A stretch of 64,000 bases of DNA. It comes from Antarctobacter sediminis. Lineage in GTDB: Bacteria > Pseudomonadota > Alphaproteobacteria > Rhodobacterales > Rhodobacteraceae. The stretch lies in NCBI RefSeq assembly GCF_019218285.1, contig NZ_JAHUZG010000001.1, positions 1,178,001 through 1,242,000 of the forward strand, read 5' to 3'. Below, in pieces: positions 56,523-62,079 of this stretch. The notes beneath the pieces were generated by a model. It was not told where the DNA came from, made no database searches, and saw only the letters and a list, made by a program, of their open reading frames with translations. Numbering within the stretch: position 1 is the first letter of the stretch; each line of letters starts with the position of its first letter. The translations under genes and the position numbers were made by a program.

Positions 56523-57287
56523 TCAGCCCTCGGACAGAGGCGCGGCGGTCTTTTCGGCGTCGGGGCCAAGGTCGGTGGGGCGCAGCACAGGACGCAACGA
56601 ACGCGCAAGGCCGGTGCAATATTTCTGCGAACGGGTCCATTGCATGATGTCCTCACGCTTGCGGCGGGAATGGAACGGCCCCCAATCCGCAGCGACGCCG
56701 CGCATGCCCTTGCTGATGACCTTGTCGCGCGGCACCGTGACCGCCATGATCCGCAGCGCGCAAGAAAGGTTGTCCTCGGGATCCTTGAGCGCAGCCCCGT
56801 TGCGCGCCTTGCATTGATAGAACCGCGCGGTGGGCGGATAGATCTGTACCAGCCCGTACCAGCGCCCGCCGCCCCCGACGGCCCCGGGGCGATGGGTGCT
56901 TTCGTGCCATGCCAGTGCCGAGATCAGCCCGACCCAGAAAGCCTCGCGTTGCGCGCGGCCCGCGCTTGGATAGGCCGGGCAATAGTCGGCTATGTCGCGC
57001 GGCACGAGGTCGGGCAGCATGTCGGCCTGTGCGCGCAGGCCTTGGAGCACGGCAAGGCTCCAGCTGCGGCTACCCTTGATATTGTCCCAGCGCGCCTTGG
57101 GCACCACGATCTTTTTGCGCGCCTTGGGTCGCAGCGACGTGGCCACGGCAAGATCAGAGGTTTCGATCACCGGCGGCGTGATCGGCACCGGCGCGGGCAC
57201 GGCAATGGCTCCGGCGGGATCCGGATTGGCAAGGCTGGCTTGTGCCAGCAAGGCGAGGCCGCAAAACAAGAGCGCAGATATCTTCAT
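56523..57287 (-). CDS. Lytic transglycosylase-like protein (SLT domain), 254 aa
   Basis: A signal peptide (MKISALLFCGLALLAQASLA) is followed by a proline-rich linker (APVPITPPV) and a goose-lysozyme-like SLT domain: 'FWVGLISALAWHESTHRPGAVGGGGRWYGLVQIYPPTARFYQC' has the catalytic Glu and the G-L-x-Q motif. It would cleave glycan strands of peptidoglycan. The start at 57287 lacks an obvious ribosome site; an upstream extension to 57404 is not conserved-looking. It is divergent from an unknown gene and may share a promoter region with it. Confidence 0.82.
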   Translation of the reverse strand: MKISALLFCGLALLAQASLANPDPAGAIAVPAPVPITPPVIETSDLAVATSLRPKARKKIVVPKARWDNIKGSRSWSLAVLQGLRAQADMLPDLVPRDIADYCPAYPSAGRAQREAFWVGLISALAWHESTHRPGAVGGGGRWYGLVQIYPPTARFYQCKARNGAALKDPEDNLSCALRIMAVTVPRDKVISKGMRGVAADWGPFHSRRKREDIMQWTRSQKYCTGLARSLRPVLRPTDLGPDAEKTAAPLSEG

Positions 57288-57530
57288 TTGGCGCGAAATT
57301 TCGCGCAAGGCCCGAAACGATGCAAGCCGGGTGGCTGCGGCACGGGCCGGACGACGCCGAAACACCAGCAAAACATTGCCCGATGACCATTCGTGGCGGT
57401 GCATTGTTCTCGGGGCCGCAACATCTTGTCAGCGGATAATCACCAAAGCCCGGTGAGCGCCGGCAGAAAGCCAGCGCAATTCCCGCAAGCCGCCGGAATT
57501 TGGCCTCGAATCGCGGGCAGATTGGGGCCT

Positions 57531-58769
57531 ATGACCCTGCGTGACCTGTTACCCAGCATGCGCCACCTGAGCGCCCGAATTTCGCCCCGCCGCCCGCGCC
57601 TTTCCGTGGTGGCCGGGCAGCCCGTCGATACGCCGCCATCCCCGGCCCTGCCGCCGCAGGTCCAGATCCCCGTGGCCACAACAGAAGCCGGCGCGGAAGC
57701 CGCCGAGACTTTGCGCGCGCGCGGTCAGTTCCTTGCCCGTCAGGAGGACTGGGAGCAGTTGGCCGTCGAAATCACCCGCGCAGAACAGGCACGTGCGCTG
57801 ACACCCGGCCTGCACTCACAGGCAGCCCTGATGAGCGAGGGGGCACGGCGCGACATTTCAGAGGCGATCCGGGACGCTGTCGCGCGCGGAGAGCCGCGCA
57901 TGGTGCAGGCGGCCATAGCCTCCCTGGAACCGTTGCTGAATGACTATCCCGGCTGCCCGGTCATTGCCCAGATCGTCGCGATGGCGCATGTGGATGCGGC
58001 CCGTGCATGGCGTGAGGCCGATACCGCTGACCGGCACGAAGCCTATGCACGCCACATGGCGGCGGCGGCCCGGCTGAACGACCGTTTCGACCCTTTCGAA
58101 CATGACATGCCGCTTTGGGCGGCGGTGCGCTGCGCCGTGCTGGAGGCCGATCCGCATCCGCAGGCCCGCGTCGCCGATGATTTCGAGGACCTGATCGACC
58201 TGGACCCCGGTAACCCGCATCACCTGTTGGCGTTTGGCTGCGCCCTGCGCCCGACCCGCTTTGGCAGTTGGGAAATGCTGGACACCCAGGCGCGGCGCGT
58301 GGCGGCACGAACGGCGGACGTCTGGGGCTGCGGCGGCTATGCCTGGGTCTATTTCGGGGCGCTGGGGACGGATGCCGGGGCTTTCGGCCGGCTGGACGCC
58401 GAGCTTTTCGCCGAGGGTCTGCATGACATCCTCACCCGGCATCCATCGCAGGACATGGCCAACCGGCTGGCAGCCCTGACCGGCCATACGCTGGGCGGCC
58501 CGACCGAAGCGGGCAGCGCAAGGCGTCGCGTGGCCGATTGCCTTGGCTGGATCGCGCAGGACCACCTGCGCGAAATCCACCCGCTGATCTGGGCCGGTGT
58601 TCCGGCGCGCAACCATGTCGACCTTTTGGACCGCCGTGACGCAGATCCGCAGCGCGTCGGACGGGCCCGGGCGCTTTCGGCACTTGGAGAGTTCTATGCG
58701 CCACTGCTGGACGGCGGACGGCGGCTTGTCTTTGGTCCCGAAGGGATGCGGATGCAGGGGAACAGCTGA
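57531..58769 (+). CDS. Hypothetical soluble helical protein, 412 aa
   Basis: I do not recognise this family. The start MTLRDLLPSMRHLSARISPR is followed by a proline-rich low-complexity stretch (about 35-60, PPSPALPPQVQIP) and then a helical body with repeated Ala/Asp-rich helices and short loops, reminiscent of TPR-like solenoids ('NHHLLAFG'-type loops not exact). A conserved-looking tryptophan/cysteine cluster is WGCGGYAWVYFGALG near residue 268. No signal peptide. It lies between divergent SLT and the large protease fusion, 93 bp ahead of the latter on the same strand, so it may be cotranscribed. Confidence 0.7.
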   Translation: MTLRDLLPSMRHLSARISPRRPRLSVVAGQPVDTPPSPALPPQVQIPVATTEAGAEAAETLRARGQFLARQEDWEQLAVEITRAEQARALTPGLHSQAALMSEGARRDISEAIRDAVARGEPRMVQAAIASLEPLLNDYPGCPVIAQIVAMAHVDAARAWREADTADRHEAYARHMAAAARLNDRFDPFEHDMPLWAAVRCAVLEADPHPQARVADDFEDLIDLDPGNPHHLLAFGCALRPTRFGSWEMLDTQARRVAARTADVWGCGGYAWVYFGALGTDAGAFGRLDAELFAEGLHDILTRHPSQDMANRLAALTGHTLGGPTEAGSARRRVADCLGWIAQDHLREIHPLIWAGVPARNHVDLLDRRDADPQRVGRARALSALGEFYAPLLDGGRRLVFGPEGMRMQGNS

Positions 58770-58862
58770 ACATCAGGTCTTTTGGCAAGACATTCCCGAC
58801 TTTGTCCGACGCAAAACGCCTGCTAGCCTGCCCGGACGACGGAATTGACGGGAACCGAATTG

Positions 58863-61800
58863 ATGCAGCGCCTTCTTTTGCTTTTGGCCCTTTCCCTGCT
58901 TTCGACCGCTTCGGCGCGCATGGCTGGCGCGCAGGGGGTGGCGGATTGTCCTTTCGGGTTCTCGGTCAACGCGGAATCCTCGGCGCTTCAGGCGCTGGTG
59001 GAAAAGGCGGCGGGCAAAGGCGGGTTCTGGCTGTCGATTGCCGAGGCACCGCCGGATGTGCGCCGGATCGCCCGCCATGTCGGGCGGTTGCAGGTCTGCC
59101 TGACCACGCCGGACGGCAAGCCCCGCACGATCGCGCGCGGGGGCCAAACCGTCACGTTGAACTCCCCCTTTGTCACGAATTGCACCGCGACGCTGCTGCC
59201 AGAGAACCGGCTGTTGACCAATCATCATTGCTATTACGATCCCGATCTTGTGCGGGCGGGTTTCAGCATCGTCCAAGAGGCGCGGGTCAATTTTGAATAC
59301 ACCTCTCGGGATCTGACCGAACTGGTGCGGACCTACCGCGTGGCCCCCCGCGAGCTGGCCGTCAACCAACAGGTTGATGCGCTGGTCTTGCAGGTGATCG
59401 GGGACGCCAACAGCGATCTTGGCGGCCATTTCCCGCTGCGCATGACCACCAGCGTGGCGCCTTTGCAGGAACTGGTGATGATCCATCACCCGGGCGCGCA
59501 GCCGCAACAGTATTCCACCGGCACCTGCAAGGTGCACCGGCGACAGACCGAGGTGGATGGCCGCGTTTCCGCCCTGCGTCATACCTGTGAAACCACTGGC
59601 GGATCTTCGGGGGCGCTGTTGCTGGATGCACGGACGCTGTCGGTTGTGGCCCTGCACAATCAGGGCGGGCTGCGTTCGTCCGGGGATGGGTTCAATGGCG
59701 GCCACAAGATCGCCTCGGTGAACAAGGCGCTGGATCTCGGCTTTACCGAGGCCGCCGCGACCCCCGGGCCGGGCCCGGAATTTGCCGCGAACCGTGCACT
59801 GGCCGACGCGCTGCTGGTGGCCGATCTGGCCGACCGGCTGGCGGCGCTGCGCGCGGTGGAAGCCCGGTTTGCCGGGACAGAGATCGGCGAAAAAGCCCGC
59901 ACCGCCGCCGCCCGTACCGAAGCCGCGCTGAGGCAATCGCGCGAAGCCGAGGAAACCGTGCGGCGGCAACAGGCGCTGGATGCGCTGGCCGCGGCGCTGG
60001 AATTGCCCGAGCGCCCCGACCGGATCGCCGCGCTGGAAGCCGTTGAGGCGCAATTCCCCGCCACCGGGGCCGCGCAGCGCGCCGAACAGGTGCTGCTGCG
60101 CGAACGCGCCGCGGCCGAACGCGAACAGGCCGACCGCAAACGCGCCGAGGCCGAAGCCGCCGCCAAGGCCGATGCCGACCGTCTGGCCGACGCGCGGCAA
60201 GCCCTGACAGAGGCCCTGCTGATCACCAGCCCCGAAGCCCGCCGTAGCGCCCTGCAAGCGGTTGTCACTGCTTTCGCCGCAACACCTGCCGCAGAACGGG
60301 CCGCCGAAGCGCTGGACCGGCTAGAGACCAGCCTGCGCGACCGCGCCCGCACCGATGCCGATGCGGAACGGCTGGCTTCGGCCCGGCAGGCCCTGACAGA
60401 AGCCCTGCTGATCCCCGAGCCCGAGGCCAAGCGCAGCGCGCTGGAAGCGGTGATTGCCGACTTCGAAGCCACCCCGGCGGCCTTGCGGGCGGGCGAGGCG
60501 CTGGACCACCTTGCGACCACGCTGCAAGAACGCGCCCGCGCTGAGGCGGTTCGGGTCGAACAGGCCGCCATGGCCGCCTTGACCGAGGCGCTTCTGATCC
60601 CTGACCGCAGCGCGCGCGAGACCGCGCTTGGGTCCGTGACCGCCGATTTCCCGGACACCGAAGCCGCCCGCAGGGCCGCGCTGGCGCTGGATCAATTGGC
60701 CGCCGCCCCTCTCCCCAAGGCTCTGGACCGCGCGGCGGTGATCCAGCAGGCGCGGTTGCGCTGTGCCCTGCGCGCCGCCAGCCCCTTTGACCCCGACCGC
60801 CCTGATACCCTGCCCGGAATCGCGCTGGAACGGATCGAAGCGGAACAGGCCATTGCCGCCTGTTCTGCCCTGGACACGCAGATCGACGGTTCACCTGCCA
60901 CAGGCTTTGCCCTTGCCCGCGCCTACGAGGCCAAGGGCGATTTCGCCGAGGCACTGGGGTATTACCGGCTTGCCCATGCCGCCGGATACACTGCGGCAAC
61001 AACCGCCCTTGGCCGTTTTGCCCGCGACGGGCTGGGCATGGAGGCCGATATAGAACAGGCCATCGGGTTCCTTGAAACCTCTGCCGAGTCCGGCGACCCG
61101 GTGGCGATGACCTTTCTTGCGACGATCTATGAACGTGACGGCGGCGCGGTCCTGCGGGACTTTGCCACCGCGCGGCGTTATCTGGATCAGGCGGTGGCAC
61201 TGAACCATCCGCACGCGCTGTTCGCCAAGGCCGAGGCCTATCGGAACGGATCGCTATATCAAAAAGACCTGCCCAAGGCGCTGGACTTCTACCGGCAGGC
61301 ATCCGCCGCGGGGGACATGCGCGCCACCTACGAAGAGGCGATGATCTACTGGCGCGGCGAAAACGGCGTCATCGAGGCCGACAAGCAGCGCGCGCTGGAC
61401 CTGTTGATGCAGGCGGCAGAGGCCGGAAACCTCAGCGCTCAACACCGCATCGGCAACACCTATCTTTATGGTCTGAACGCAAAGGTGGCCGGGGCCGATA
61501 TCGCGCCGGACTTCGTCAAGGCCAAGCGGTGGTTGGCCCAAGCGGCCGAAAACGGATTTGTTCAGGCGCAGATGCAACTGGGCAAGATCTTTGCCCAGGG
61601 GTCTTACGGGGTCGAAAAAGATCCCGCCGAGGCGCTGCACTGGTACGAAATGGCCGCCAAACAGGATTTTGTGCGTGGCCTCGTAGAAGCCGCTCGGCTG
61701 TATGAAACCGGCACCGGAACCGAAAAAGACCCAAGACAGGCCGCGGCCTATTGGTTCCGCACGATGGAACTGCGCGCCAATGTCGCCCGACAGCGCCCGG

Positions 61801-62006
61801 ACCCTTGGGATCGTGACACCGCGCGCGAGTTGCAGCGCCTGTTGCGCGATGCCGGCGTCTATCGCGGCGGGCTGGACGGCGCGATTGGTCCCGGATCGAT
61901 CGACGCGATGAAATCCCTGATCGGTCGTTATTCGCGCAACATCACCTATTTCAAGCCGGGTGTGCGCATTCCGGTTCAGCACGCGGGCTGGCTTTGTCAG
62001 TGCTGA
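58863..62006 (+). CDS. Secreted trypsin-like protease, helical-repeat and Sel1-repeat fusion, 1047 aa
   Basis: A signal peptide ([18 protein letters not shown]) leads into a trypsin-fold domain (about 30-300) with triad His122 ([10 protein letters not shown]), Asp172 ([11 protein letters not shown]) and Ser249 ([11 protein letters not shown]). Residues about 306-616 hold five tandem repeats of roughly 65 residues (e.g. '[34 protein letters not shown]'). Residues about 678-973 are Sel1/TPR-like repeats ('[40 protein letters not shown]', '[27 protein letters not shown]'). The end (about 985-1021) resembles a peptidoglycan-binding domain ([21 protein letters not shown]). The combination suggests periplasmic proteolysis tied to the wall. 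Confidence 0.8.
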
Positions 62007-62079
62007 CCGTAGCCTGACTTGCCCTTGCGCGCGGGCTGAATTAGACCCATCGGGAACGCCTGCACGCCAAGGAGCCGCC

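Follow-up and report, generated by a model that had tools for sequence, protein, structure and literature searches.

Can a single type of exported protease be given different targets by exchanging what stands behind it? The question is raised by a gene in a 64,000-nucleotide stretch of the Antarctobacter sediminis genome (the whole stretch is hereafter referred to as the window), for which a first-pass annotation, made from the letters alone, had described a secreted chain that joins a trypsin-type protease to five unfamiliar repeats, Sel1 repeats and a peptidoglycan-binding-like end. We report that the open reading frame and this overall architecture are borne out by the frame itself, by Pfam and by an independent repeat profile: the gene occupies 58863..62006 on the + strand from an ATG (58845-62006 if counted from a TTG) and encodes an apparently exported protease of 1047 amino acids. 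The relatives discussed below are a collection of 85 proteins with such heads, ten of them from the window's own genome, which represent 74 loci chosen from the listed matches in 24 genomes or plasmids. Several listed matches, mostly short frames, were left out and only some candidates per genome were scored in the searches, and the counts are accordingly lower bounds and do not describe a random sample.

The protease head

Residues 1-23 (58863..58931; this and all other features of the gene are on the + strand) look by eye like a signal peptide with cleavage near AGA-Q, and the structure model has a signal-like N-terminal helix at residues 2-20. Between this and the protease domain there is a conserved stretch, residues 27-93 (58941..59141), which is common to close heads in an alignment of 12 of them. 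The protease domain itself, residues 94-290 (59142..59732), was assigned from the Pfam Trypsin_2 match (PF13365, MEROPS S1; residues 107-264, 35.5 bits vs a cut-off of 27.6), from the triad and from fold matches. H122, D172 and S249 (codons at 59226, 59376 and 59607) fall in the triad columns of the head alignment and the full triad is present in 79/85 collected heads, that of the window protein among them, in line with the intact trypsin triad described at first. Four head cysteines are kept in 85/85 relatives; together with the triad in 79 of these, this is in keeping with an enzyme that is exported and oxidised.

A profile of 12 heads aligns in its His and Ser motifs with the Bacillus glutamyl endopeptidase 1p3c (E 2.7e-5), and the best fold matches of the head model include Esp 6q24 (Z 19.7, rmsd 2.6, 192 aligned), V8 1qy6 (Z 19.2) and 1p3c (Z 19.1). 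Since the staphylococcal exfoliative toxins (Z 19.2) and DegP (Z 18.8) tie with Esp and V8 within about 1 Z unit, the fold of the head cannot fix subfamily or function. Judged by profile and triad, the window protein is a V8/trypsin-like (Trypsin_2) serine protease with predicted activity. It has the fold, the triad and the His and Ser motifs of V8 and other glutamyl endopeptidase-like proteases, which however are without the putative rod, the Sel1 array and the wall-type end described below. HtrA/Deg proteases, with a trypsin fold and a C-terminal PDZ, are likewise envelope proteases with a C-terminal recognition module, and some of the relatives collected here carry PDZ. The window protein does not (no PDZ among its Pfam matches up to E 10) and is thus no HtrA member, and among its relatives the recognition module is interchangeable.

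Linker repeats

When the profile is built solely from repeats outside the window protein, repeats 1 to 5 score 49.1, 43.5, 55.2, 54.7 and 58.0 bits, while the best of 2000 shuffles of the same stretch reaches 18.3 bits and the reversed stretch 3.1. The repeat core has 42 residues and the five cores are located at residues 309-350 (59787..59912), 371-411 (59973..60095), 444-485 (60192..60317), 507-548 (60381..60506) and 569-610 (60567..60692). The start-to-start spacing is 62, 73, 63 and 62 residues, close to the "about 65" given for the five tandem copies originally, and repeats 3 and 4 form a 189-nt tandem pair that is 71% identical at the nucleotide level. Such repeats are present in 30/85 collected relatives in 1 to 5 copies (five in the window protein alone), and in 26 of these 30 they begin 14-31 residues past the protease domain.

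For residues 306-616 no Pfam profile scores above its cut-off, the sole match being PNPase at 564-596 (17.5 bits vs 24.6); NCBIfam gave only matches far under the cut-off (MerG, MotX and ExoR), and TPR profiles do not match in this region, the TPR matches being confined to residues 682-705 and below cut-off. An ordinary TPR or coiled coil, the outcome that would have spoken against the first-pass annotation, was thus rejected at the level of profiles, with the fold level kept open. The AlphaFold2 model of the repeat region alone (15 sequences; mean pLDDT 94.3) has helices of 13, 14, 40, 14, 52, 14, 41, 14, 40, 14, 15 and then 16 residues, in which short and long helices alternate (14 vs 40-52 residues) and the last helix of a repeat continues into the first helix of the next. 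Because the helices run on from repeat to repeat, the modelled block reads as a helical rod. A spectrin-like rod, an idea taken from the helix pattern, has no spectrin among the best 50 matches of either fold search, which excludes nothing. By Foldseek the repeat model comes closest to TPR proteins of the PDB, BamD among them, with E values of 1.7e-3 or worse (none at <=0.001), and VIA-align gave BamD 3qky (Z 8.1) and NlpI 8xup_B (Z 8.0), a range that according to the tool is common for helical models. Hence, of the claim that the repeats match no known family, the part that concerns sequence stands, there being no Pfam name for them, while their fold is not clearly new and weakly resembles the TPR units of BamD and NlpI. 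The repeats make up a sequence family that Pfam does not name, with a fold that on the model may be TPR-like. Homology between the repeats and a four-cysteine hairpin found in other family members (see below) was rejected for now (hhalign E 0.27).

The Sel1 array and the C-terminal end

A two-cysteine lead-in (residues 616-692; 60708..60938), common to the relative L140 and the caspase-headed L216, precedes the Sel1 array at residues 693-971 (60939..61775). Pfam Sel1 (PF08238) scores 104.5 bits (cut-off 30.7) in 7 stretches, which agrees with the six or more Sel1/TPR repeats given at first, and this part of the model matches 8sxq_A (Z 22.9). In the accessible sections of a 2008 survey (PMC2605481), YP_374752.1 of Pelodictyon luteolum is listed as a trypsin with six Sel1 repeats, one among 247, and many trypsins have PDZ; YP_374752.1 has the same gross order as the window protein, and linker repeats, a wall end and tail exchange are not described in those sections.

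The end of the chain, residues 980-1022 (61800..61928), was delineated by local match to the ends of relatives. At the same position 10/10 other trypsin-headed Sel1 proteins scanned match PG_binding_1 (PF01471) with 16.7-23.8 bits, 3/10 passing the cut-off of 23. By this likeness the end of the window protein resembles PG_binding_1, but it fails as a member of the family, with no Pfam match up to E 10, and the peptidoglycan-binding-like tail is therefore a weaker case than first stated. The last six residues read GWLCQC (residues 1042-1047; 61986..62003); L140 ends GWVCQC and L216 GWDCQC, such that all three close with GW-x-CQC. The AlphaFold2 model of the whole protein (19 sequences; mean pLDDT 81.0) leaves the relative placing of head and tail unpredicted (pTM 0.43).

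Head and tail combinations in the family

The closest heads in the genus and the family bear tails different from that of the window protein. Its head is closest to that of L055 from the same genome (70.5% identical, 186/264), which carries two SBP_bac_3 stretches, and its tail is closest to that of L140 (50.1%, 216/431), the protease domain of which is only 35.1% identical (61/174). By these identities the window protein is a head-tail chimera within a modular family. The next-best tail match after L140, 44% identical, belongs to an exported-looking caspase-like protein (L216:1999-4626) with a Peptidase_C14 head (81.1 bits). This protein also has three copies of a four-cysteine linker hairpin that occurs in 11 other family members (42.9-45.8 bits with a hairpin profile trained on trypsin-headed rows only). 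L216 and L217, which are caspase-Sel1 proteins from the same bacteria, have the same tail and hairpin on an unrelated catalytic head, so that two unrelated protease heads, trypsin-like and caspase-like, share linker and tail parts. Caspase homologues with Sel1 or WD40 have been noted (accessible parts of PMC4933709 and PMC5756287), and conflict systems that act inside the cell and contain parts of trypsin and caspase type have been described (accessible part of PMC7159879).

Pfam was run on 39 proteins, a set that also takes in neighbours, a transposase and three caspase proteins, and recognised eleven kinds of tail that pass the cut-off in proteins with such heads: Sel1, PG_binding_1, SBP_bac_3, SBP_bac_8, Beta_helix, SH3_3, PDZ, WD40, Pro_isomerase, YARHG and TPR_12. 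A local sort of all 85, with classes built from local seeds, gave beta-helix (16), SH3 (14), Sel1 plus PG_binding (14), SBP_bac_3 (5), PG_binding alone (4), WD40 (2), PDZ (2), SBP_bac_8 (2), cyclophilin (1) and beta-helix plus a PDZ-like stretch (1), with 16 tails unassigned and 8 proteins having none. No C-terminal toxin domain was found, the Pfam-assigned tails being binding or folding modules (16/85 tails unassigned by the local sort). Two members, L054:7303-9888 and L170:978-3020, have tails of several similar units of ~100 residues that are SH3-like by eye, those of L170 being missed by Pfam. In the window's genome a seemingly truncated member of 248 aa (L107:9962-10708) is one of three protease genes arranged in tandem.

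On a head tree of the quick kind, which warns of long branches and from which L107_9962 was dropped as too short, the tail labels require 29 changes vs 56.7 for shuffled labels, and by this measure tails are mostly inherited and sometimes replaced. Such strong clustering also speaks for drift without retargeting, by which spare C-terminal domains would be gained and lost with the repeats merely easing recombination, as do the fast change of the linker where no swap has occurred (see below) and the commonness of multidomain bacterial trypsins (accessible sections of PMC2605481). However, the new tails are complete, in-frame, extracytoplasmic binding modules and not debris, the six heads that lack the triad are all without a tail, and the same tail is found on trypsin-like and caspase-like heads; we therefore hold drift to be very improbable.

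With the 12-head profile 10/394 genomes of the family match at E 1e-40 and 25/394 at 1e-12, while 6/6 genomes of the window's genus match at 1e-20; in a sample of the order the figure is 3/292 at 1e-30, all three in the window's family. A contig scan with the whole protein gave only 5 loci, matched across the Sel1 part.

Tail differences at syntenic loci

Two of the synteny groups, with 17 and 12 members, combine adjacent genes from tandem arrays. At the first locus considered here (locus I) seven species of three genera are syntenic on both sides in 21/21 pairs, with a flank identity of 76-91%. The heads at this locus fall into two lineages that share about 45% identity, and part of its variety is therefore whole-gene replacement and not tail exchange. 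Within the first lineage, however, the heads of L048 (SBP_bac_8 tail) and L049 (PDZ tail) are 98% identical, with L050 (SBP_bac_8) at 95-96%; the more distant L047 and L097 (heads 68-72%) both carry Beta_helix, and L097 in addition a PDZ-like stretch below cut-off. In the second lineage the heads of L051 (Beta_helix) and L052 are 92% identical, and the tail of L052, which has no Pfam tail, is SBP_bac_3-like by a weak local match.

The flanks of L048 and L049 are 89.6 and 89.9% identical. Up to residue 349 the two genes are 78-97% identical in nucleotides; across repeat 2 the figure is 58-61%, and for the tails it is about 40%. The blastn match breaks off two residues past the core of repeat 1 and is taken up again 14 and 28 bases past the respective stop codons, whereas in the unswapped control, L048/L050, identity is 58-95% from the head to the stop. 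On these alignments the seam is sharpest between repeats 1 and 2. For L051/L052 nucleotide identity has fallen to 57-67% as early as repeat 1 and is about 50% beyond that, residue 352 onwards, and blastn ends at residue 286 / 360, the start of repeat 2. This seam is blurred, since the drop starts behind the protease domain and the linker diverges fast even in the unswapped control. An IS110-family transposase gene (L052:4119-5261; Pfam DEDD_Tnp_IS110, 70.2 bits) directly adjoins the tail end of L052 and is absent from the syntenic L051.

At locus II, L102 and L172 have different PG_binding tails and L169 has WD40, and at locus III L168 has PDZ vs a cyclophilin in L135; at both loci the seams are right after the protease domain. 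Against such exchange, the tails are constant at the SH3 locus (10/10) and in the gene that opens the Sel1 array (7/7). The tail differences are compatible with a tail-exchange system for targeted proteolysis, in which complete recognition cassettes would be replaced between close species at standing loci, the linker repeats would act as joints and the tails would serve trypsin-like and caspase-like heads, a generalisation that we put forward tentatively and rate somewhat below an even chance.

The main rival to a change of target, above all for the SBP tails, is ligand gating, by which the tail would sense a ligand (a small molecule, a sugar, a peptide or a piece of the wall) and its binding would turn the protease on or off, with the delivery of clients being the lesser role. 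HtrA proteases combine targeting and gating, several of the tails are classic ligand-binding folds (SBP_bac_3 and SBP_bac_8), and a rigid rod could transmit a conformational change. Yet WD40, cyclophilin, Sel1 and PG_binding tails would suit a common small-molecule switch poorly, and the rod is unplaced relative to the active site in the whole model, given its pTM. Gating thus appears rather unlikely, even if it deserves more weight than the other alternatives.

Gain and loss of genes and of catalysis

In 5/5 congeners the upstream gene (window 57393-58769) adjoins gatB and the window gene is missing, the stretch absent at the same place corresponding to 58755..62069 (+). Locus I is in turn empty in the window's own genome, with about 130 bases at L186 (contig C2, near 317700) where congeners have the protease gene. 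From these comparisons such protease genes also come and go as whole units. Mobile-element borders were not found for the window gene: the stretch 58680-58900 is free of direct repeats, and of the 20 direct-repeat families listed not one marks both borders. Two genes upstream there is a lytic-transglycosylase-like gene (window 56526-57404, - strand; Pfam SLT, 30.8 bits), which is conserved in the congeners and hence not specific to the protease.

In the plasmid collection two records match the head profile, a conjugative plasmid of Mameliella alba (Roseobacteraceae) and a Methylobacterium plasmid (30%), and a nucleotide search with 57393-62006 gave no match. The relative on the M. alba plasmid pKUB257 (WP_172431653.1; L095:5920-7992) combines a head of 58% identity with a single repeat, Sel1 and an end that is PG_binding-like. 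Viral contigs gave 22 pattern matches, 0 of which were confirmed as relatives. A defence system was considered on account of PADLOC matches and rejected, those of the window protein (RT-Protease_XI, 17.4 bits; PtuA, 17 bits) all being confined to generic parts, either the protease or Sel1; the same parts account for matches of up to 38.2 bits in two relatives.

Triad-less heads number 6/85 (L114:4024-4875, L113:6920-7756, L171:1425-2276, L115:11656-12543, L053:6101-7348 and L164:83-2383) and all six are without a tail, while two more tail-less heads retain the triad, one of them truncated. Fisher's test for loss of triad vs loss of tail gives 6e-8, with the six heads being non-independent (three are orthologues) and L164 having a long N-terminal part. 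As a sequence pattern this fits the idea that a tail is not kept once there is no catalysis left for it to direct. Three of the triad-less heads adjoin an active-type Sel1-tailed protease gene and are perhaps decoys or regulators.

The catalytically dead tail-less paralogues, the whole-gene presence and absence at two loci, the different tails on near-identical heads and the relative on a conjugative plasmid could also be understood if the proteins were a diversifying weapon or defence, the tail picking a foreign target (competitor, predator or phage) and conflict driving the exchange. We regard this as improbable in view of the weak PADLOC matches, which stem from generic parts, the Pfam scans that show no toxin domain and the lack of any confirmed relative in viral contigs.

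Discussion

The reading that we favour, and on balance consider probable, is that the window protein and its relatives are exported proteases of the V8/trypsin fold whose aim is set by an interchangeable rod and tail, with tail exchange directing them to other clients or envelope places. A Sec-exported, disulphide-containing serine protease head would cut in the envelope, presumably in the periplasm, while the five-repeat helical rod would hold it away from the Sel1 superhelix and the end. The Sel1 superhelix may take up a client protein and the C-terminal end may dock on peptidoglycan. Among the relatives rod and tail would have been swapped (for solute-binding, beta-helix, PDZ, SH3, WD40, cyclophilin and other modules), also inside standing loci, such that one protease chemistry would be retargeted each time. 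That the protein acts as an adaptor placing proteolysis at the wall, as the first-pass annotation had it, is something we infer for a chain whose own end gets no Pfam hit; the adaptor idea is strengthened, and widened beyond the wall, because head, linker and tail are exchangeable across the family.

Polymorphic toxins have a constant front and an exchangeable rear. The proteins studied here are alike in the exchangeable rear, but it is the enzyme that is constant and the binding module that is variable. In Prc-NlpI and CtpA-LbcA a TPR adaptor is thought to bring clients, including wall hydrolases, to an envelope protease (accessible part of PMC8764530). The likeness is that of a helical-repeat module serving an envelope protease; the difference is that those systems consist of a carboxyl-terminal processing protease and a separate lipoprotein adaptor, whereas the window protein has a V8-like head and Sel1 in one chain. 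By analogy it is best read as a covalent counterpart of Prc-NlpI or CtpA-LbcA, its nearest working analogues. Our literature search, with most subscription papers outside its reach, found nothing on tail exchange in such proteases, which may nonetheless have been published.

The specificity of envelope proteases is open for most bacteria. The natural pairs at one locus, with heads 92-98% identical and different recognition modules, make the question of whether the tail chooses the client directly testable, and would also reveal mere tethering or gating. A tail common to trypsin-like and caspase-like heads would moreover offer a starting point for learning what the many caspase-Sel1 proteins exported by bacteria do. 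Should the tail-exchange system outlined above be real, these bacteria would direct proteolysis in the envelope or outside the cell by a system whose aim can evolve, arranged as in a polymorphic toxin except that the enzyme stays the same and its aim varies.
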